From a virus: a stretch of DNA of 24,479 nucleotides. Every line of letters starts with the position of its first letter. Position 1 is the stretch's first letter. The notes under the pieces are model-generated. The model made no database searches and was not told the DNA's origin. It was given only the letters and a program-made list of their open reading frames with translations. A program made the position numbers and the translations under genes. Shown here in pieces: positions 8,537 to 24,006 of the stretch. The stretch spans positions 1-24,479 of the IMG/VR virus record IMGVR_UViG_3300032287_000466, one strand, 5' to 3'.

Positions 8537-8793
8537 CACTTCACCTTGTCTGCCCAATAAGCGGCACTCATTTTACCTTTAGCAATATTTTTTGCGTGAC
8601 GTGCTTTAAAAGATGCTTGACGTTTAGTTGGTGTTCTGTCCCCAGTTACACCTTGTTGTCCAAAGCGGATTGTCTTAACCTGTGAACCTTGTTTAGCCAC
8701 AACAATGTGTGACTTCTTAGGATGGTTAGGAGTCCGCTTTGGTCGATTATAACCAGCGACTCCAGCCCTTTTAAGGCGTGAGTCTTTCATCAT
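8533..8793 (-). CDS. Conserved basic phage protein (AGYNRPKRTP family)
   Basis: An 86-aa, highly basic protein. It has the conserved core VAGYNRPKRTPNHPKKSHIV followed by VAKQGSQVKTIRFGQQGV, a basic middle and the end KARHAKNIAKGKMSAAYWA. I recognise close relatives in phages of aquatic bacteria and in other large viruses, annotated only as a domain of unknown function; I do not give an accession because I cannot check it. It begins on an ATGATG that overlaps the previous stop (TAATG). Its basic charge and place in the structural operon suggest a virion or DNA-associated role. Confidence 0.8.
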   Translation of the reverse strand: MMKDSRLKRAGVAGYNRPKRTPNHPKKSHIVVAKQGSQVKTIRFGQQGVTGDRTPTKRQASFKARHAKNIAKGKMSAAYWADKVKW

Positions 8794-9272
8794 TATTTTT
8801 TCTTCTTCCTAAAATCTCTTGTACCATAGATTGCTGCAGCAGCACCAACAGGACCAAACGGTGCAGCGATTCCGCCAACAACTTTACCAATAGTGCGTGA
8901 AGTTTTATTACGGTCAGCCTTCATCTTTGATGTAACAGCCTTCTGTTGAGCAGAAGTTAAATCAGCAAAACTTTGCCTTTTAACAACTTTACCAGCACCG
9001 TTACGTTTAACAGCAGTTTTCTTAAGAGTTGACTTAACAGGACCAGCCATAACTTTGGACCTTTTAGAACCCATAACTCCACCAGCAGGAATAGATTTAC
9101 CTGTTGAAACTTTAGCACCAGCAGTAGCCTTGGCTAATCTCTTAGCACCGTACATACGCTTGATTGCTTCTTGGTATTCTGGAGTACGACGACTCTTTGC
9201 AGCAGCAAGAGCCTTAGTCATACCCATCTTTTTAATTTCATCAATGGTTGATTGTTTAACTTTAATAGCCAT
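8793..9272 (-). CDS. Basic Ala/Lys-rich protein with hydrophobic Gly/Ala segment
   Basis: A 159-aa, very basic protein. The N-terminal ~50 residues are helical (VKQSTIDEIKKMGMTKALAA and KRMYGAKRLAKATAGAK). The middle is Lys/Ser/Gly-rich. The last third has LTSAQQKAVTSKMKADRNK, then a hydrophobic stretch IGKVVGGIAAPFGPVGAAAA at about 129-148 and the end DFRKKKK. The layout (basic, 'T.AQ.KA', then a Gly-rich hydrophobic segment) resembles the Lys-rich 145-aa protein between terminase and portal, so the two may be distant paralogues. It could be an internal virion protein with a membrane-active helix. Function unknown. Confidence 0.7.
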   Translation of the reverse strand: MAIKVKQSTIDEIKKMGMTKALAAAKSRRTPEYQEAIKRMYGAKRLAKATAGAKVSTGKSIPAGGVMGSKRSKVMAGPVKSTLKKTAVKRNGAGKVVKRQSFADLTSAQQKAVTSKMKADRNKTSRTIGKVVGGIAAPFGPVGAAAAIYGTRDFRKKKK

Positions 9273-9434: not shown

Positions 9435-9545
9435 TTATTTCTTCTTTCCTGTTTTTTTCATCTTAGTCATTGATTTTTTCTTTGAATCTATTTTCTTCAT
9501 ATCCATCATTTTTTTGCCTTTAGGCATTTTTTTTCCGTACATCAT
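9435..9545 (-). CDS. 36-aa Lys/Met-rich peptide
   Basis: A short gene read directly: ATGATG at 9545-9540, stop TAA at 9437-9435. The 36 residues contain 16 Lys and 8 Met, with only two acidic residues (MMYGKKMPKGKKMMDMKK to TKMKKTGKKK). It begins 1 nt after the stop of the 83-aa gene and ends 1 nt before the 52-aa gene. That spacing, and the survival of the frame through two long A-runs, argues that it is translated. It is probably disordered or a cationic helix. A nucleic-acid or membrane-binding role is possible but unsupported. Confidence 0.6.
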   Translation of the reverse strand: MMYGKKMPKGKKMMDMKKIDSKKKSMTKMKKTGKKK

Positions 9546-13273: not shown

Positions 13274-14368
13274 TTATCTTAACCCAAAATCTTGAAGAAT
13301 TTTATTCGCATATCCTGCTGCTTCTTCACGAGCATTATTTGTGTACTCCCATTGAGGACTGTTGCGTAACATTTTATTAAAGTCTCCAAAGTTGGGAAGA
13401 GTTGATAAAGCATTTTGAATATATCTATTATCAAGTTTAATTGTTTCAGGGTTAATCTCTAAAACATTAGACATTCTATTAATGTATTGTGAAGCAATAT
13501 CTTTAACAGTTAAACCTTGGTCAATGAAAGAAGCAAGGTTTTGATAAGTTGCTTTAGCAGTATTTTGAATCTTTGTTCTAACAGTTTCAACAGCATTCTT
13601 ATCTGTTAAACCACTAAGAGCATATTGACGTACTTCAGCATCAGATAACGAAACGTTATAATCGGAAGCAAGTTTACGAATATCACGAAGGTTAGCACCT
13701 ATTGCACCACCAGCATTTTCAACACCTTTAGTGTCAATGTATTTAGAAACATACTTTAAAGCCAGCGCTTCGCGGTCTTCGTTAGTTACACCAGGAGTAA
13801 CAACCTGTGTAGTTGTGTTTCCACTACGAATAGTTTGCTGTTTAGAAACATTAGTTTTCTCAAGTTTGTTTAATTCTTTGTAATAGTTTTGGAAGTCTTT
13901 AGCATCAGCATCAGTACCAATATAGTCGCGCATAAGTTTATTAAAATAATCATACGCATCTTCTTTAGTACTTATAGATGGCTGTAAGAGAACACTTGTT
14001 CCATCACCTAAACCAAGCATATCTTGATTAAGACTTACTTCATTAGCAATCCAAGTATCAAAAGGTTTAGTTCTATCACTTAATCCATAACCATCAAGTA
14101 TTTTATTAAAAGCACTATTAGCATTAGTAGAGTTCTTAGGTGAGTAACCTGGATTGTATGCTTGAATGTATCTTAAAATATCTCTTCTAGTATTTTGGTC
14201 CTGTGTTTTAGAATACAAATCATAGGCTTGTGCTACTTTGTAAACTTTACCACCAAGAGTAATATTGTTAGCAGAACTACCACCAGTAGTAGAACTATCT
14301 GAACTACCACCTGGTCTATACTTGTCATACTTGTCAATATCATCTTCAAATACTGGAGGATTAGCCAT
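13274..14368 (-). CDS. Putative internal virion protein
   Basis: A 364-aa protein starting on the TAATG overlap with the stop of the 1584-aa gene. The N-terminus is acidic and Gly/Ser-rich (VFEDDIDKYDKYRPGG). It continues as mostly helical sequence, with VAQAYDLYSKTQDQNTRRDI, YNPGYSPKNSTNANSAFNKI, DAYDYFNKLMRDYIGTDADA and a C-terminal NAREEAAGYANKILQDFGLR. I see no catalytic motif or membrane helix. The 'PFDTWIANEVSLNQ' segment and the overall composition resemble structural proteins near portals of actinophage-like genomes. It is likely part of an internal or ejection complex with its neighbours; function unproven. Confidence 0.65.
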   Translation of the reverse strand: MANPPVFEDDIDKYDKYRPGGSSDSSTTGGSSANNITLGGKVYKVAQAYDLYSKTQDQNTRRDILRYIQAYNPGYSPKNSTNANSAFNKILDGYGLSDRTKPFDTWIANEVSLNQDMLGLGDGTSVLLQPSISTKEDAYDYFNKLMRDYIGTDADAKDFQNYYKELNKLEKTNVSKQQTIRSGNTTTQVVTPGVTNEDREALALKYVSKYIDTKGVENAGGAIGANLRDIRKLASDYNVSLSDAEVRQYALSGLTDKNAVETVRTKIQNTAKATYQNLASFIDQGLTVKDIASQYINRMSNVLEINPETIKLDNRYIQNALSTLPNFGDFNKMLRNSPQWEYTNNAREEAAGYANKILQDFGLR

Positions 14369-17300
14369 TATTTATAAACTCCGAATTCATCTTGTTCAAG
14401 AAATCTGTCATACCAAAGAGCAAACTTTGGTGAATTACGTTTAGCATCAGCAACAAAGTTATCAACAGTATCTCTTAAGACTTGATTACTTGTTGAATTA
14501 ATATCACTTGATTTACTGTTTTCTAGTTCATTACTTACATAATCTCTGAAGTCCATATACTCAACAAGCCATTGAAACGCTGGTTCATTTTTAAACCAAT
14601 CACTGTTAGTAAACTCTTCATCTTCTAACATTGTATCAATTGTTCGTAAAGTGGTTTTATATTTACCTAGTTTAAAACCTTCTTTATATGTATTATACCA
14701 ATCAGGATTTACAGCCTTCTGGTCCTCAACAAATTGTTTCTTTGCTTCCTTAAGCCAAGTTGCCCCGCGAGAATTGATAGAAACAAATCCTTCTTTTTCT
14801 CTTTCAGAATCAAGCCAAGATGCAAACTTATTATACTCAGCCCAACCAACTTTAACCTTAGCGTTAATCAAAGCAGTTTCAACAGGGATATCATTACGAT
14901 AAGTAACGTCACCTGTCATACCTGGTTTATTTAACAATTGAAAAACATATGCTGATTGGTCAAACTTTGTTTCAGCACCCCAACTGTTTGTTATAAGTTG
15001 TGTAACAAAAGGGTCTTGGTTTGGGTCGCCAACAATTTTAGAAATAAGATAACGATGCTTAACAGACTGGTCTGATGCAGCAGTACTTGCTTCAACCCCT
15101 GTTGTATTCTGACGGAATGTTGTTACAACCATTTCAAAATACTCTGGATACTTTTCATAGAACATAGCATCTGCTTGTTCAAAACCATACTTGTTTTGTA
15201 GTTCTCTATACTTATTAAAGAACTCATCAAACTGTGTTGCGTATTGTGGGATAACACCAAATGTCGAGTTAACACCAAAGCGTAAAGCAAATAACCAACT
15301 AGTTCTTTGAGTAAGTTCTTCAGGTGTTGGTTCTGTTGTTCTTAAACCTAATTTGTATTTTTGATTTTCAATTGCTGTTATCTTTTGCATTTGAGAAAGA
15401 TAAGCATTGTCATCAATACCTCTTGCCAGAGAAACAACACGTTTAATGTTTGCTGGTAATGTTAAATCAAGTGAACCAAATTCTTTTGAAGAACCATTAG
15501 GTAAAACATATTTATCAATAAAGAGTCTTTTAATTGGTAAATCTAAACCAGTTGTTCTTTGAATTTTTGCATCCAAGTAAGGAACTGCTCTTACTAAATT
15601 AGAAACACCGACTTGAACTATTGGACCAAATCCTGCTGACCACCAAGGGTCACCAGAAAAAGGAATTGCTAATCTTGTTATGGGAAACTTAAACGAATCA
15701 AACTCAGAAAAACCTGGGTACTTTTTCCAAGACTCTGGTATCTGTAAAGTTAATAATGGTTCCCCAGTTTCTGGGTCATTCTCAATAAGTTCTTTATTGT
15801 ATGGGTCTTGCCATACTTGTGTTGGTCTAATAAGAGGTTTAGGGTTTTCAAATATTAACTTAGAATAAACACGAGTAGTGTTTAATGCTGCTTGAATAAA
15901 TGGTGACATAAAAGAAGTGTATGCTGCAAAGTTAGAGTATCTTCTAACAGTATACAATACACGGTTAGTTTCTTTTAATGCTTCACGATGTGCTGCTTTT
16001 TCAACACCAGCAATTTCTTCTGCAGATGTTGCTTTACCTGTACGCTGTTGTTTAGCAACGAGTGCTTGACCACCACGTTCGATAGCAGTTTTGTAAACAC
16101 TATCATAAAATGGGTGACGTACTAAAGCATCTTCAGGCATTGAGGCTAAGAATTTAAATGCTGTATTGGTGTAGTCTCTTGCTATATCACGCCAATTTCT
16201 ATCTAAAGGTCTACCAATAATTTCACCATAAACAGGACTTAGTTGTTCACCAAGTTGACCCATTCGTGCTTCAAGTTCATAGGCTGATGGCATCTGTTCG
16301 TATGGTTTAGTTGCTATATCATATCGAACTGATTGGTCTGGAAAATAAGTTTGAACTTCATTCCATCTATCAGCAATATAGTTATCTACATTGATTGGTG
16401 ATTTCTTGTTTTCTTTAGTTGCTAATTCAACATTAGTGTTACGAAATTCTTTTTTAGCAACACGGTCTGAAGAAACAAACCATTGTTTAATTTTATTAAG
16501 TTCACTTCTAATATGTCTAGGACCAAGATTTGTGTCAATTAATAACATTTTTCTGGTAACTTCTGTTTGACGTAACTGTCTACCAACAACATATAATGAT
16601 GGGAAATAGTTAGGGTTAGTAGGTTCTACCATATCCCAACCATAGGTTCTGTATTGTGAACCTTGCATTAAAGGGTTACGTATTTCTTTTGTTTGGCGTT
16701 GCAATGAAGAAGATAGTTTCATTCCCATTGAACCAATAGCGCCAGACTTTGAACCTCTGAATTGAAGATTATCTATAACAATATTCTCTTGACCTTGACG
16801 TATTTTGTTATATTTACCACCACGTTTTTTAGTAGCAGTATCAATCTTTACTAACATATCTGAATATAATAGTTCTTGTTTATTTAAGTTTTGATTTAAA
16901 TCATCTAGGTCTTCGTTGATTCTTTGTATTCTATCTTTAATCTTTGTTTTCTCGTTAGACCTAATATCTTTTTTACGAAGTTTGTTTTGTTCGTTTAATA
17001 GATTATTAGATAACTGTTTTTGTTTATCTCTAAGGATTACCAGTTCATTCTTTTGCCATTTAACTATAGAGTTCCAAGAATTTAATGTTGCTTTGGGTGC
17101 TTTAATTCCTAATTCTTGGGCAATGTTATATTTTTCAATACGATTGCCAACAATACTATGGTATAGATTGTTAGATAAATTCTTTGAACCTTTGGCTAAA
17201 GCCATAGCCATACCCATTATACTTTGTTGGTATAATGCTGTACGAATAGAACCTTCTGCTACGTTACGTTGTGGGTAACCAAAGCGCAACAAGGTTGCTG

Positions 17301-19122
17301 GTCTCCACACAGAATCAAAAGCAAAGTATGCGCGTTGCATACCATCTTTAATACCTAATGTGGCATCTCTTAAGAAATCTAAATCTCTTCTAGCAAATGT
17401 TTCATATAGTTTTATATCAAGTAATGGTACTGCTTCGCCAAGTTGTGAACTTAATACAGGGTCTGTAATAATCCATTCACCCTCATTGTAAGCAAAACCT
17501 GTTTTACGATAATGGTTTAGAACATTTGCTCGTCTTTGGTCTATCTTCCATTTAATAACATCACTGATAGTTGTAGGGTTTTTAACACCTTCAAGTTCAG
17601 CCCATTGACGTTCTGATTGGGAAAGTTTTCTATTAAGACCATACTTTTTATTGATTGCTTTAACCATAGAGTTTTCTATTCTTAAAGCAACAGCAATTCT
17701 ATCGAAGTCTGATTGTGCAGAAAGATATTGGTTAATAAGTTTTCTTTTTTGGAAAGCACCTTTATTAGTCTTTAATGGTTTTACTTGGTCCATAAATGCT
17801 ATCAGTTCGTCTGCTGAACCTGATGAGTTAATACCTTTATGTTCTAACCAACCTGAAGGTTTTTGTAAACCTGACCAAGAAATAACTCTAATAGCGTGGT
17901 CATATACTGATTGTTTAATTGTTTTTGTGGACCATTCAAGTCCATCAATTCTATTTAAATTACCTGTTTTAAGTCTTGATGTTTCATTTAAAAATGCTTT
18001 TGCTCTAGCGTTAGATATCTCTCCGCGTGCTTTTTCAACAAATGAGAAACGTGAAGGCATAATTGCTTTATCGCCAATGAATGGTGATTCAAGTGATGCA
18101 TCATTAACACGGTTCATTATGGCACGGAAACTAGTACTACGTTTCTTTATATCTTCTATAATATCTACGGTTTTAATGCCTAGTTCTTTATCTTTTAAAA
18201 GCATTTCGTTTACGTCACCATTGTAACGTAGGTCTGCTATGTATTGTAAATCTTGTTTAGCAAGTTTAGTTGATTTAGTTCTATCAATAATATCAGCAAT
18301 TGATGCTGCTTCTTTCTGTAAACGTCCTAGTGCTTGCTCGTCACCTAGCATTGCACGGAAAGAATCTTCAGCAATAGGTCTTGCTTTTACACCATAATTC
18401 TCTATGTTAATGTCACCAAATACACCAGAGATAAGTTCAGGGTTGTTAGACATTTGTGCTATAGGATGTTTGTATAATCCTGCAGAATCTGATTGTAAAG
18501 CATAGTCAATGAATGATGAAGCACCTTTAGTAGAGGTTATTTTCTTTATACCTTCAAGGTCACCTATTGGTGCTTTAGGGCTAATTAACTTACCTTTAGC
18601 AAGTGCTCCTGCTTCGGCACCTACAATGAATGGGTCAGCATACCAGGAAACAGCAAAGTCACCTAAACCTGTAGTCCATTTACCTATGATTTCTTCATCG
18701 AATGCTTTACGGCGTTGTGCATCATCATAGATATTAAAGTCTTTACGTCCACCTGTTGGAACATTAACGCCTAATGATTCTGCTACGTTAAATGCTTTTC
18801 TTGGTAGATTAAATGGGGCTAAATCTGATGCACCAAATAATGCTTGTGTTGGGGAAATCTTTTGTGCAGGTCCACGATAGGTGGATGCAATGTCTGAGAG
18901 TTGGAAACCGTCTTTAAATTCTGGATTATCTTGGTCAGTTAAAAGCGCTGCAGTTGAAAGACCTGCACCAATAGTACGTTGAACTTCGCCTATTTTATTA
19001 AGAGCAGTACGTCTTTTGGTATTTTCAGGTGCAGCATATTCTATGGCTTCGCCAAGAACTGCTTTACCTTTTTCAATAACGTTGTTATCAACCCAGTTAG
19101 CCCAGTCTGAAACTAAACTCAT
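14368..19122 (-). CDS. Giant (1584 aa) virion protein, putative internal/ejection protein
   Basis: A 1584-aa protein, the largest in the window, between portal and scaffold. The N-terminal region (1-150) includes AVLGEAIEYAAPENTKRRTA and is helical. A middle part has SVWRPATLLRFGYPQRNVAE and a predicted coiled coil at about 688-765 (VILRDKQKQLSNNLLNEQNK, IQRINEDLDDLNQNLNKQE). The C-terminal half has conserved-looking aromatic patches (YSNFAAYTSFMSPFIQAALN, AIPFSGDPWWSAGFGPIVQV) and ends YDRFLEQDEFGVYK. No enzyme motif is obvious to me. Large proteins in this position are internal virion proteins that enter the cell with DNA in some podoviruses (compare T7 gp16 by size only); this is inference. 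Its ATG overlaps the previous stop by ATGA. Confidence 0.75.
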   Translation of the reverse strand: MSLVSDWANWVDNNVIEKGKAVLGEAIEYAAPENTKRRTALNKIGEVQRTIGAGLSTAALLTDQDNPEFKDGFQLSDIASTYRGPAQKISPTQALFGASDLAPFNLPRKAFNVAESLGVNVPTGGRKDFNIYDDAQRRKAFDEEIIGKWTTGLGDFAVSWYADPFIVGAEAGALAKGKLISPKAPIGDLEGIKKITSTKGASSFIDYALQSDSAGLYKHPIAQMSNNPELISGVFGDINIENYGVKARPIAEDSFRAMLGDEQALGRLQKEAASIADIIDRTKSTKLAKQDLQYIADLRYNGDVNEMLLKDKELGIKTVDIIEDIKKRSTSFRAIMNRVNDASLESPFIGDKAIMPSRFSFVEKARGEISNARAKAFLNETSRLKTGNLNRIDGLEWSTKTIKQSVYDHAIRVISWSGLQKPSGWLEHKGINSSGSADELIAFMDQVKPLKTNKGAFQKRKLINQYLSAQSDFDRIAVALRIENSMVKAINKKYGLNRKLSQSERQWAELEGVKNPTTISDVIKWKIDQRRANVLNHYRKTGFAYNEGEWIITDPVLSSQLGEAVPLLDIKLYETFARRDLDFLRDATLGIKDGMQRAYFAFDSVWRPATLLRFGYPQRNVAEGSIRTALYQQSIMGMAMALAKGSKNLSNNLYHSIVGNRIEKYNIAQELGIKAPKATLNSWNSIVKWQKNELVILRDKQKQLSNNLLNEQNKLRKKDIRSNEKTKIKDRIQRINEDLDDLNQNLNKQELLYSDMLVKIDTATKKRGGKYNKIRQGQENIVIDNLQFRGSKSGAIGSMGMKLSSSLQRQTKEIRNPLMQGSQYRTYGWDMVEPTNPNYFPSLYVVGRQLRQTEVTRKMLLIDTNLGPRHIRSELNKIKQWFVSSDRVAKKEFRNTNVELATKENKKSPINVDNYIADRWNEVQTYFPDQSVRYDIATKPYEQMPSAYELEARMGQLGEQLSPVYGEIIGRPLDRNWRDIARDYTNTAFKFLASMPEDALVRHPFYDSVYKTAIERGGQALVAKQQRTGKATSAEEIAGVEKAAHREALKETNRVLYTVRRYSNFAAYTSFMSPFIQAALNTTRVYSKLIFENPKPLIRPTQVWQDPYNKELIENDPETGEPLLTLQIPESWKKYPGFSEFDSFKFPITRLAIPFSGDPWWSAGFGPIVQVGVSNLVRAVPYLDAKIQRTTGLDLPIKRLFIDKYVLPNGSSKEFGSLDLTLPANIKRVVSLARGIDDNAYLSQMQKITAIENQKYKLGLRTTEPTPEELTQRTSWLFALRFGVNSTFGVIPQYATQFDEFFNKYRELQNKYGFEQADAMFYEKYPEYFEMVVTTFRQNTTGVEASTAASDQSVKHRYLISKIVGDPNQDPFVTQLITNSWGAETKFDQSAYVFQLLNKPGMTGDVTYRNDIPVETALINAKVKVGWAEYNKFASWLDSEREKEGFVSINSRGATWLKEAKKQFVEDQKAVNPDWYNTYKEGFKLGKYKTTLRTIDTMLEDEEFTNSDWFKNEPAFQWLVEYMDFRDYVSNELENSKSSDINSTSNQVLRDTVDNFVADAKRNSPKFALWYDRFLEQDEFGVYK

Positions 19123-19738: not shown

Positions 19739-21478
19739 TTATCCTAATTGTGAAAGTAGTTCTTGTAATCCTGCTGGTGGTTGTTCAGGTTGACCTGGTT
19801 GAGGGGCCCCTGGAGCGGCTGCAGCAGGAGCAGGAGGGACGGCTTGCTCAACTGGCGCCATTGGAGGTACTCCAGGGGCAACTTGTGGGGCAGGAGCAGG
19901 GGCTGATGCAAATACTTTAGTTACTGCTTCTTCTATTTGCGTACCTTTTTGGCGCTCTTTTATTACTTCTGCCATTTTCATTGCAAGTTCTGAAGGGTCT
20001 TGTCCTTGTGCTACCATTTCTGGGATAGCATTTGCTAATCCAGACATTGATGCGTTGAGATTGTCGCGCATACGTTGAACATCTATTTGTTGTTGTTCAC
20101 CTGTTACGTTCATTGACCAAGGAAGTTCGCGCATTACGAAGTCTCTTGATATCAAATCTGCACCAAGTGCTTGTAGTGAGAAGATTAAGGCACGGCTTGG
20201 GTCAAGTCCTGACATCAAACCGTAGCGTACTTGAATTGAATAGTCACCTTTAATGTCTTTACGTGGGTCATATTCTAATTCGTATTTAGCACCGTTAGAT
20301 ACGGTGTTAATTTTCTTTGGTCCTGCAAAAAGTTTTTCATCCATCTTAAAACATAATGACATTACGTCTTCAAATGTGTCTGTTAAAATTTGTTGACCAG
20401 TTTTAACTTGGGTATCAAATGCGCCAAGTAAGGCTTGAACACCTTGACCTGTAATAATAGATGCATCAATGGTACCTGAACGTCCTTCAGGGTATCTTGC
20501 ACCCATACGCATTTCTTGTTGCAATAATGCTGCTTCAGTGAACGCAGCAGGTGGAACCTCTAAGCCTACACGGCGAATGTTCTGCGGCTGAGCAGTTCTA
20601 AGTATTGCATCAGGTCCAAAAGCAAACTCTTGGACATCATTTGGTACGGCAAGTGGTGCGTTGATTGATTTTTCTGCAGCATCCATTGCCAATTGAGCAA
20701 AACGTGCGCGTGCGATTTGTACCCATAGTACATCATCGAATTGACCACGTGGTTCACCGTCAATTCCTGGGCGCATTGCAACGCGTACCATCACTTCACC
20801 CATTGGGTTATCTGTGCTGGTTAAAACTAGGTTACCTCTAGTAGGTAAGTATAAAAGGATAACGTCTTTATCTTCATAACGAATCATTTCTAATTCGGAA
20901 TAAAGGTCAACTTCATCCATTTTGTATCCGTTAAGGATTTCTCTTTCAAATTCTGGGAATTCAACAATAAGTTCAGCAATTGTTTTAATGTATCTTTTTG
21001 TAAAAGATATTACACGACCATAACGGTCAAATTCTGGGTATGAACCAAGTGGGTTCTCTACACGTATACGTGGAAGATTTGATTCTATATCTGCTTCAAC
21101 AACTATAGGTAAGAAACCGTAGGTTCCATACCAATCAGCACCTGTGTACATTTGTGTTTGTAGACGTGCGTGTTGAATATAGTTATTTGCAATAAGGGTT
21201 TTAGTATCAGCAAACTTTTTTGCACGGTCAGAGTTAAGAGTTGATGTGCAGTTAAATGATGGTAGTGGTGCTAAGACCTCGCTGACGTCGCGTGCGGCAA
21301 CGTCAACGAAGTTTGCAATCATAGCCTTGGTTGCACCTTCAGGAAACATTTCTGGAAATACGTTAACAAGGTTGCCTCGACGTACTTCAAGAACGTCACC
21401 CATACGTGCGTCGCGCGCAGCGTTGCGGCGTTTTAATGCCTCAACTTTGGCTGCAATTCTTGTTATATTTGTTGACAC
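19739..21478 (-). CDS. Portal protein
   Basis: A 579-aa protein starting with GTG at 21478 (Shine-Dalgarno GAGGTAAG just upstream). The portal ring forms the DNA entry vertex and terminase docking site. Features: N-terminal helix RIAAKVEALKRRNAARDARM, a 'clip/wing' region with ENPLGSYPEFDRYGRVISFT, the stem and crown half with FAQLAMDAAEKSINAPLAVP, then GRSGTIDASIITGQGVQALL and ILTDTFEDVMSLCFKMDEKL, and a disordered Pro/Ala/Gln tail from ~525. Size, the position after terminase and the 'NPLG..PEFDR.GRV' motif fit portals of this phage type. The GTG overlaps by 1 nt (TAGTG) the stop of an upstream open frame that lacks a start codon. Confidence 0.88.
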   Translation of the reverse strand: MSTNITRIAAKVEALKRRNAARDARMGDVLEVRRGNLVNVFPEMFPEGATKAMIANFVDVAARDVSEVLAPLPSFNCTSTLNSDRAKKFADTKTLIANNYIQHARLQTQMYTGADWYGTYGFLPIVVEADIESNLPRIRVENPLGSYPEFDRYGRVISFTKRYIKTIAELIVEFPEFEREILNGYKMDEVDLYSELEMIRYEDKDVILLYLPTRGNLVLTSTDNPMGEVMVRVAMRPGIDGEPRGQFDDVLWVQIARARFAQLAMDAAEKSINAPLAVPNDVQEFAFGPDAILRTAQPQNIRRVGLEVPPAAFTEAALLQQEMRMGARYPEGRSGTIDASIITGQGVQALLGAFDTQVKTGQQILTDTFEDVMSLCFKMDEKLFAGPKKINTVSNGAKYELEYDPRKDIKGDYSIQVRYGLMSGLDPSRALIFSLQALGADLISRDFVMRELPWSMNVTGEQQQIDVQRMRDNLNASMSGLANAIPEMVAQGQDPSELAMKMAEVIKERQKGTQIEEAVTKVFASAPAPAPQVAPGVPPMAPVEQAVPPAPAAAAPGAPQPGQPEQPPAGLQELLSQLG

Positions 21479-21609
21479 TACTTACCTCTAAATTTTCTTT
21501 TTTTAGGTACATAATAATAGTTTAATGTACCATCAGGGTTAGTTCTGTTTTTACTTCTTTCGATTCTTTCGAAACCTTGTTTGATTATATCAGTGTTTCG
21601 TTTATCTAC
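21478..21609 (-). other. Candidate -1 frameshift extension of the 145-aa gene (43 codons)
   Basis: The -1 frame past the 145-aa stop codes 43 residues (starting VDKRNTDIIKQGFERIERSK, with NPDGTLNYYYVPKKRK near the end) and stops at TAG 21480-21478, sharing its G with the portal GTG. The frame closes upstream at a TAA just before the A-run and contains no ATG, GTG or TTG, so it cannot start by itself in a standard way. Its basic, protein-like character matches the 145-aa protein. A -1 shift would give a 188-aa fusion. A length error in the A9 run, making one continuous 188-aa gene, is the main alternative. Confidence 0.6.
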
Positions 21610-21618
21610 TTTTTTTTT
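21606..21618 (-). other. Slippery site A AAA AAG followed by UAG
   Basis: The last codons of the 145-aa gene read TCA AAA AAA AAG TAG on the transcribed strand. A AAA AAG is the same heptamer used for -1 frameshifting in E. coli dnaX. The zero-frame stop follows it immediately. An SD-like AGAGAAG lies about 13 nt upstream, as in several bacterial frameshift sites. I see no strong hairpin downstream, only a short TTTCGAAA palindrome about 35 nt away. Confidence 0.55.
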
Positions 21619-22043
21619 GAAGGGTTATACTTCTCTGGAAATTTTCTTCTTAACGCTGAAGTTCTACCAATGTTTCTTTCAAGTTGTGATGTTGGTTGGC
21701 TTGCGCGAGTTGTTCTTGCAGGGGCTTTAGAGTTACTTAAAGCACTTTTCATTTTATTAAGGGTTTGGTCAAGTTTCATTTTCTTTGCAGGAATACTTTT
21801 ACGAACAGCAACTGCTCCACCCTTGCGTGCTAGGCTTGCGCCACCAACCATTGAAGCAACTGTTACTACACCTTTAGCAACAGACTTTGCTTGTTTAACG
21901 TTATAGGCTTTTTTCTGTGCAGGGGTCATTGCTTTATATTTTTTAGAATTAGCACTGATTGCTTTTTGTACATCAGCAGCGCCACCTTTACGGCTGTAGG
22001 CTCTTGAGGTACCCATTGATTTCTTTTTATTGTCTTTTGGCAT
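21606..22043 (-). CDS. Lys-rich basic protein between terminase and portal (zero-frame product)
   Basis: A 145-aa, strongly basic protein starting 8 nt after the terminase stop. The N-terminus is MPKDNKKKSMGTSRAYSRKG. A helical region AVQKAISANSKKYKAMTP-type sequence with AQKKAYNVKQAKSVAKG follows. A hydrophobic Gly-rich stretch VVTVASMVGGASLA lies at about 76-89, and the C-terminus is basic (RRKFPEKYNPSKKK). Its design resembles the 159-aa protein after the capsid gene. Position and charge suggest a DNA-binding head or packaging accessory. The zero frame ends at AAG TAG inside a nine-A run; a -1 shift would add 43 residues. Function unknown. Confidence 0.7.
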   Translation of the reverse strand: MPKDNKKKSMGTSRAYSRKGGAADVQKAISANSKKYKAMTPAQKKAYNVKQAKSVAKGVVTVASMVGGASLARKGGAVAVRKSIPAKKMKLDQTLNKMKSALSNSKAPARTTRASQPTSQLERNIGRTSALRRKFPEKYNPSKKK

Positions 22044-22051
22044 TGTTTCTC

Positions 22052-23953
22052 CTATTGATAAAACATTTCTGATTGTTGTTCAGCAAACGCTTCATCTAAA
22101 TCAACAATGAATCTGCTTGCTAATTGTTTTCTACTAGCCCAACGTGATGTCATATAGTTTGTGGTGGAACCTGAACGTTCAACCCATTCTCTTACAACAA
22201 TCTCGCAGAACCACAAAGCCATAACCATATCAAATGGTTGACCTTTTCTCATATCTGGTTTCCAGACAATGAGTTGGTTAATTAAAGCCTTAATGCCTTC
22301 ACTGTTACTAGTTGAAGGTAAATCTATAAGGTTGGAGTCTCTAAGGAATTTGTTTTCGCTAGACGCTCCAAACAACGGAGCCATCGATGCAATCCCAAAA
22401 TCGACGTCCCATTTGTTGTTACCAGTGAAGTGCTCACGAAATATGATTCCACGAGAAGCAAGAAATTCACGTATCGCTTCGTCTTTCGTAAGGAATAACT
22501 GAAACGCATTCTTCTCCACTACTACAACGTTAGGTTGATATTTGATTGTCCACTCTTGAATTAAGTTTCGAATTTTTTCAGGGGTAGGTTCGGTCATATT
22601 TATTGCATCAAGAACATAACGTTTTTTGGTTTCAACATCTACAGCAATTATAACTGCTGCTGTGGCACCAGCCATTGCAGGGTCCATACCCATAACAATA
22701 CGAAACGTGCCATCATTAGGATGACCTGGTGAACCTAAACGTAAAGGACCAACTTTACGCATCCCACTTATAGAACTTTGAACACATACAGGGGGGAATA
22801 TGGAATCCTGTTCAACATCTTGTTGCTGGTATACCATAGCCCAAGTTTGGGGTGTGACTTCTGAGCGACGTTGGTAAAGCGCAGGACCATCCCACTTTGG
22901 ATAGAGTCCATCAGAATCAGGTGTGGTGTCCTCGTCACCGTCCCAAGGACGGTCGCTTCGAGACCAGAGCGTCACCCAGTCGTCACTTTTATCCGCAACC
23001 TCAAGAACTGCTGGCATAGCCAAATAGGTGAAAGGGGTTTTGCCCCCAGACCAATGTTCTGGATTACGAAGTTCACGGTACAGGTCATTAGATGCAATGC
23101 GTGTACCAACAATTAGAAGTTTACCGTTTTTACCCAAACGTGTAATAACTTCTTGCTGTAACCACTTGATTTGCTTTTCCCATTCGTGGGCGTTAGCACC
23201 AGTGATACAGTCATCAAGAATAATTAAATCGGCGCGTGCACCGTAAATTTGTCCACCCATACCCAATGCTTGAAGAGTAGGGTCTTTCTCAGAAGAGTCT
23301 CTAGCCTCAGCACCAAGGTACACTGTGTCAGTGCGCCAAGTATCAGCGTCTTCTTGCCAACCACCCTCAGGACCATACATAGCCTGAAGTTTCTGCCACC
23401 TAGGGTGAGACAAGCGTTGCTTAATAGCATACACAAACTCGCGTGCCTTATACAAAGTCTTAGACACAATAATAATACGAACGTTAGGGTTAAGCGCAAC
23501 CCTATAAGTTGAATAGTTAATAGTCACAGTAGTGGACTTGGCGTGCTCAGGGGGAATATTAATCAAAACACGGTTACGTGTTGCAGGCTCATACACCATA
23601 GAAGGATGAACCCACGCAGGTTCCCCTTTTTCCAACAAAGAAATAAAGTTCTCCTGGTGGGGGAAAACCTTCATATCCAAATACTGCTCAGAAAACTCTT
23701 TAAACGTTACATCAAACTTATCAGACGACTTCTTACCAGCCCGAACCTCATCCCTAGAGATACGAGCGTCATCCAAAAGTTCGCGAAATTTTTTATCAGT
23801 CTTAGTCCAATACTTTACCGTGTCAGGTTTAACCCCAGCCACCTTCGAAGCATCAGCCACAGTCATCCCAGACCCCAAAGCCTTAAGGAAATCGTCCTTC
23901 CTATGGGCACTCAGTTCCCTGGTATGGTGCGCGTCCCCAGCCTTAGCCGACAT
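22052..23953 (-). CDS. terL: Terminase large subunit with N-terminal HTH
   Basis: A 633-aa packaging motor from the ATG at 23953, chosen because GGTGG lies 8 nt upstream; TTG at 23968 or GTG at 23965 would add 4-5 residues. Residues ~25-55 form a helix-turn-helix (MTVADASKVAGVKPDTVKYW) that resembles a small-terminase DNA-binding domain. ATPase: Walker A-like IPPEHAKST at ~133-141, Walker B LIILDD at ~243-248, followed by a 'VGTR' coupling segment near 290. Nuclease (RNase H fold): VMGMDPA near 420, VVVVEKNAF near 475 and FDMVMALWF near 573 supply the acidic residues. It cuts and packages concatemeric DNA at the portal. No separate small terminase gene is visible in the window. Confidence 0.93.
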   Translation of the reverse strand: MSAKAGDAHHTRELSAHRKDDFLKALGSGMTVADASKVAGVKPDTVKYWTKTDKKFRELLDDARISRDEVRAGKKSSDKFDVTFKEFSEQYLDMKVFPHQENFISLLEKGEPAWVHPSMVYEPATRNRVLINIPPEHAKSTTVTINYSTYRVALNPNVRIIIVSKTLYKAREFVYAIKQRLSHPRWQKLQAMYGPEGGWQEDADTWRTDTVYLGAEARDSSEKDPTLQALGMGGQIYGARADLIILDDCITGANAHEWEKQIKWLQQEVITRLGKNGKLLIVGTRIASNDLYRELRNPEHWSGGKTPFTYLAMPAVLEVADKSDDWVTLWSRSDRPWDGDEDTTPDSDGLYPKWDGPALYQRRSEVTPQTWAMVYQQQDVEQDSIFPPVCVQSSISGMRKVGPLRLGSPGHPNDGTFRIVMGMDPAMAGATAAVIIAVDVETKKRYVLDAINMTEPTPEKIRNLIQEWTIKYQPNVVVVEKNAFQLFLTKDEAIREFLASRGIIFREHFTGNNKWDVDFGIASMAPLFGASSENKFLRDSNLIDLPSTSNSEGIKALINQLIVWKPDMRKGQPFDMVMALWFCEIVVREWVERSGSTTNYMTSRWASRKQLASRFIVDLDEAFAEQQSEMFYQ

Positions 23954-23965
23954 ATACAAAACCAC

Positions 23966-24006
23966 CAATATTATATAATATAAGGAAATCGCAACAAGCG
24001 ATTTCC
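23966..24006 (-). promoter_or_regulatory. Candidate late promoter overlapping an inverted repeat, upstream of terminase
   Basis: A perfect 9-bp inverted repeat (GGAAATCGC at 23984-23992, GCGATTTCC at 23998-24006, 5-nt spacer) is followed on the minus strand by a 14-nt palindrome ATATTATATAATAT that contains TATAAT. A weak TTGTTG about 16 nt upstream falls inside the repeat loop. It may be a promoter with an operator over its -35, or a terminator-like hairpin ending upstream transcription. The host sigma preference is unknown. Confidence 0.4.

Follow-up and report, generated by a model that had tools for sequence, protein, structure and literature searches.

The window analysed here is the whole 24,479-nucleotide stretch (positions 1-24,479) of the IMG/VR virus record IMGVR_UViG_3300032287_000466, and the putative recoding locus within it lies entirely on the minus strand. 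The gene for the terminase large subunit (22052..23968; PHROG 38, E 3.5e-64) is followed by a Lys-rich gene of 145 aa, which we call the core (21606..22043, TAG included), and then by the gene for the portal protein (19739..21478; 579 aa with a GTG start; PHROG 104 portal, E 7e-23). The core starts from an ATG with the Shine-Dalgarno sequence AGGAG (22049..22053) 5 nt upstream, and its 3' end reads TCA AAA AAA AAG TAG, containing a slippery run of exactly nine adenines (A9; 21610..21618) with the 0-frame stop TAG (21606..21608) directly 3' of it. From this point 43 codons can be read in the -1 frame, from GTA (21609) to AAG (21481), and this extension (21481..21609; VDKRNTDIIKQGFERIERSKNRTNPDGTLNYYYVPKKRKFRGK) ends in a TAG (21478..21480) that overlaps the portal GTG as TAGTG, the last G of the stop being the first base of the portal gene. 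The extension frame in the window contains no ATG, GTG or TTG, and there is no room for a start of its own further upstream, because a TAA closes the -1 frame just 5' of the run, six codons before the GTA. Joined through a frame change at the junction KKKV, core and extension (145 + 43 residues; extension peptide NPDGTLNYYYVPKKRK) amount to 188 aa. The preliminary description of this DNA had reported a 145-aa Lys-rich gene ending in A AAA AAG TAG, a start-less -1 frame of 43 codons ending on the portal GTG, and products of 145 and 188 aa; coordinates, codons and lengths all agree with the sequence. A weak hairpin of 8 pairs (21570..21600; -6.1 kcal/mol) lies 3' of the run and is limited to the window's own sub-lineage. 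Downstream of the portal gene the minus strand encodes a 1584-aa protein (14368-19122) that matches PHROG 10618, of unknown function (E 1e-59).

No significant Pfam or PHROGs match was found for the core, and tblastn returned no relatives in phage genomes. AlphaFold predicts helical structures at low confidence, both for the core (pLDDT 63) and for the in-frame fusion found in contig L088 (pLDDT 57). The protein, rich in Lys, Ala and Gly, is encoded between terminase and portal by a gene that is optional, the portal following directly after the terminase in many relatives; our guess would be a basic helical protein, either DNA-associated or a minor component of the head. The closest isolated phages are the Planktophila phages E7 and F5, at 55% portal identity, whose host is LanE-43 (PMC10202952). 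A host search with the portal against bacterial genomes gave no match, and the host of these nearest isolates served as a guide in its place; the window phage and its relatives probably infect abundant freshwater (lake) actinobacteria. The window also encodes a second Lys-rich protein of 159 aa ending in RKKKK (8793-9272, minus strand), in which a stretch of about 40 aa close to the N-terminus has 51% identity to a portion of the gene that follows the terminase in Planktophila phage E7 (L122:2286-2741).

The A9 run and the extension in related contigs

Relatives were gathered from IMG/VR using the portal and extension sequences as queries, giving an extension-bearing set of 35 contigs including the window, with 27 distinct extension sequences; contigs L116-L120 were chance matches to an unrelated protein and were dropped. 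Scanning for the pattern A9GTA added no contig to this set. A lone A9G is not unusual in a window of this composition, where 0.50 are expected by chance over both strands and 39 of 100 shuffles contain one. What goes beyond chance is that the A9 stands at the end of a gene, that an open -1 frame leads precisely to the portal start, and that the arrangement is kept: the exact A9, a G, a TAA or TAG (30/30) and a -1 extension ending on the portal start were found together in 30 of the 35 contigs, counts that are not independent trials because common descent and recombination connect the alleles. The preliminary description had looked to related phages for persistence of the A-run and of the two-frame arrangement, and both do persist.

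The codon preceding the run is TCA, GTA, ATA, ACA or GCA, so that the amino acid varies and the third base is constantly A. In other parts of these genes KKK is without exception broken up as AAA AAG AAA (11/11), and at the joint it is AAA AAA AAG after xxA (19/19). In the compared stretches around the gene this is the sole run of at least nine A on the coding strand; longer versions of the contigs add two further A9/A10 runs, both in intergenic terminator-like hairpins. To judge from this codon usage, selection acts on the A-run itself, and on the whole A9 rather than merely on a heptamer. The two additional runs, at about position 199 of L127 (reverse complement) and at L133:1263, are placed within a terminator-like hairpin (CCCCCAGT...ACTGGGGG) upstream of the terminase. 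In the window, the only other run of at least eight A on the coding strand is an A8 near the start of a tiny Lys-rich ORF (9436-9545, minus strand; MYGKKMPKGKKMMDMKKIDSKKKSMTKMKKTGKKK).

The remaining contigs carry altered joints. Core and extension are fused in frame by an A10 in two contigs (L019 and L088) and, lacking A9, by an A8 followed by CAG in two others (L021 and L093, representing one allele). The preliminary description had held that raw counts of 8 or 10 A would mean one continuous gene; A10 does give a fusion, and it occurs in only 2 of the 35 contigs. In the last contig, L018, the two parts are joined in frame at the ancestral site, and 13 codons downstream stands a new A9 (CCT AAA AAA AAA CTG AAA TAA), from which a -1 shift enters the rest of the extension; the 0-frame stop comes two codons past the A9 CTG, and the heptamer A_AAA_AAG is absent there.

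The extension is 43-56 aa long and basic. Seven hand-picked close pairs show 33 differences in all, 25 of them at third positions of the -1 frame (p about 8e-7 against an expectation of one third). Between the window and L109 there are 7 synonymous and 0 nonsynonymous differences, with 6 and 0 for L015/L086 and 3 and 1 for L006/L008. The signal was not seen in one more distant pair, L013/L017, and distant pairs are saturated. The extension thus appears to be under purifying selection in the -1 frame, and the protein-level conservation anticipated in the preliminary description is found in the third-position bias of the close pairs. Core homologs in L038, L048, L049 and L050 stop at the position that corresponds to residue 141 and lack the extension. 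Judged by their reading frames, these four would represent the short product alone in natural form, as L019, L088, L021 and L093 would the long product alone.

That a -1 frame change lets one gene make two products, of 145 and 188 aa, is the best reading of these data and a well-supported one. This central claim of the preliminary description gains from the A9 in 30 of 35 contigs, the four fusions, the one moved A9 and the selected extension; conservation of the A9, selection in the -1 frame and the occurrence of purely short-form genes as well as of pure fusions are established at the level of sequence, and we infer from the sequences that both proteins are produced. Because relatives keep the A9, fusions exist, the third positions are biased and short-form homologs occur, it is unlikely that the site is due to sequencing error, to chance or to an independent gene.

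Possible transcriptional or ribosomal slippage

With some reservation, we favour programmed recoding by transcriptional slippage on the A9 over a shift made by the ribosome, and both kinds of slippage may be acting. Most transcripts would carry the A9 and give the 145-aa basic protein ending at the stop right after the run. RNA polymerase would slip on the nine-A run, so that a fraction of transcripts would carry A10 and give the 188-aa protein with its C-terminal extension (or one of 189 aa, should the additional A bring in a further lysine codon). The short and long forms, having the core in common, would presumably both be used in the head or in DNA packaging. Transcriptional realignment is the class to which A-runs longer than seven are assigned, and frameshifting reached 40% in E. 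coli with a cassette of nine A (PMC3711429); in Citrobacter tssM1, poly-A slippage reaches 20-25% free of any stimulator (PMC4256274). At the locus studied here a homopolymer of at least eight A is conserved as a run, including the wobble base of a codon that is otherwise variable.

Several observations nevertheless weigh against RNA polymerase. The direction is always -1, the 35 contigs holding only -1 or in-frame (A10) alleles and no +1 allele, and the stop is adjacent except in L018; by the GeneTack rule of thumb, a single shift direction together with an adjacent stop indicates ribosomal frameshifting. Two heptamers on which ribosomes can slip, A_AAA_AAA and A_AAA_AAG, overlap at the A9, and ribosomes of E. 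coli slide in vitro along successive AAA codons, unaided by stimulators (PMC4363877). Furthermore, the A9 alleles share ancestry, and the host is presumed from a portal identity of 55% to the Planktophila phages.

Ribosomal -1 frameshifting at A_AAA_AAG or at the overlapping A_AAA_AAA, with the stop beside the slip site, is accordingly a possible explanation, if the less probable one. Besides the constant direction and the sliding on AAA-AAA seen in vitro, it can draw on the presence of both heptamers in frame in 30 of 30 A9 contigs and on the weak 3' hairpin of the window's sub-lineage (z about -3 over 40 nt). This hairpin is, however, no general stimulator, because the other A9 alleles lack it, and neither a Shine-Dalgarno-like element nor a downstream hairpin is conserved among 16 representatives. 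The conserved run also exceeds a heptamer, extending into the free wobble base, and the new site of L018, an A9 CTG with its stop two codons on, is not A_AAA_AAG.

The tRNA complement of the candidate hosts may also argue against the ribosome. The shift at the E. coli dnaX heptamer relies on a single tRNA-Lys(UUU) that is weak on AAG, and a CUU tRNA lowers a shift of the dnaX type. By contrast, tRNA-Lys(CUU) is present in 8 of 8 acI genomes including LanE-43, which also carries tRNA-Lys(UUU), with the phage host presumed from portal identity; in the likely hosts this should weaken slippage on AAG. One tRNA-Lys is present in E. coli (PMC4363877), and pairing of tRNA-Lys(UUU) with AAG is described as weak (Tsuchihashi and Brown 1992, as cited in PMC4066793). 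The preliminary description had identified A AAA AAG as the slippery heptamer of dnaX: the heptamer is indeed in frame in every A9 contig, yet the ribosomal mechanism attached to it is not established, and conservation of the whole A9, the lack of a conserved stimulator and, less firmly, the tRNA-Lys(CUU) of the likely hosts make a dnaX-type shift the weaker reading.

In a third scenario, an A would be gained or lost in replication at the DNA level, so that by phase variation each genome would be committed to one product, the short form with A9 or the fusion with A10. The A10 alleles of L019 and L088 would fit, all the more as L088 is close to the A9 allele of L016, with core and extension almost identical. 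However, the 32 run-bearing contigs at the ancestral site divide into 30 with A9 and 2 with A10, no A11 was seen, A8 occurs only in the L021/L093 allele and there in frame, and the extension is still under selection in A9 genomes. We therefore consider phase variation improbable as the main explanation, though it is possible alongside slippage.

Still less probable is that the extension forms a small gene of its own, on which translation reinitiates after terminating at the overlapping stop. This reading finds its example in L010, L011, L012 and L098, where the 0-frame stop overlaps an ATG of the extension as TAATG. The preliminary description had regarded an extension with its own ATG in relatives as evidence against recoding; such relatives are confined to these four contigs, and their sub-lineage keeps the A9. 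The other 31 contigs have no start at this place, and four carry the in-frame fusion. We therefore rejected an independent gene with its own start, except that in the TAATG lineage it may play a supplementary part. That a continuous gene was misread in sequencing or assembly has a negligible probability, for although homopolymers are error-prone and the A10 of L019 or L088 could individually be an error, the A9 recurs in thirty contigs from many different metagenomes and has moved in L018.

Relation to known recoding systems

Recoding in phages is best known from tail chaperones and from capsid extensions made by the ribosome. The tail assembly chaperone G/GT of lambda resembles the present gene as a case of -1 recoding with two products in a phage late operon; the gene described here differs in lying between terminase and portal instead of beside the tape measure gene, and shows no similarity to it by PHROGs or Pfam. 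C-terminal extensions that are frameshifted in some relatives and in frame in others, as here, include the capsid and Ig-like extensions of T7/T3 (gp10), A2 and Listeria phages (PMC5009743). Our tests, in contrast, gave no capsid or tail identity and no Ig-like match, and the extension, of the length given above, is basic and helical at low confidence.

With regard to the run itself, there is a likeness to dnaX (tau/gamma) of Thermus thermophilus, where, as proposed here, nine A in lysine codons lead to two products with a common N-terminus (PMC3711429). There, however, it is the short product that arises from slippage, into a stop, and the gene is a cellular polymerase gene for which the process is experimentally proven. 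The E. coli dnaX gene has the in-frame A AAA AAG in common with ours and differs in the points raised above, namely the upstream Shine-Dalgarno element and downstream stem-loop, neither of which is conserved here, the tRNA-Lys(CUU) of the likely hosts, and the A9 as the conserved unit. An A homopolymer yields truncated and full-length forms, at levels of tens of percent, in Citrobacter tssM1 and Shigella mxiE/spa13 (PMC4256274, PMC5009743); these are bacterial secretion genes, whereas the present gene belongs to a phage packaging/head operon and has a core and an extension that reassort.

We found no prior description of an A9 recoding gene of this kind in the open-access literature. Frameshifted C-terminal extensions in phages and slippage on A-runs in bacteria are both known, and it is their combination, at a position between terminase and portal, that is new. 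A conserved A9 at this position would add a new place for phage recoding, and probably another mechanism. Annotations probably lack the long protein, since a gene caller would close the reading frame at the first stop codon. The cultured Planktophila phages E7 and F5, which grow on LanE-43, make tests in a related host feasible.

Exchange of cores and extensions

The two parts of the gene have different histories in some pairs of contigs. L002 and L012 share 98% of the core end and 35% of the extension, and L008 and L009, conversely, agree in 98% of the extension and in the entire portal N-terminus but in 27% of the core end. These comparisons argue that core and extension are exchanged independently, with the A9 as an invariant joint that links two variable cassettes; the run may itself be a recombination point, or it may simply mark the boundary of two selected pieces. 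We tentatively suggest, as an idea that may well prove wrong, that the A9 joint could be a modular recoding site, at which cores and extensions are swapped and a short and a long product are always made by slippage of RNA polymerase. If true, the head/packaging operon of these phages would contain a two-cassette gene that is combinatorial and linked to slippage. Reassortment of the same kind is seen in L015/L084 and others, and in these pairs, as in the two above, the portal is nearly constant.
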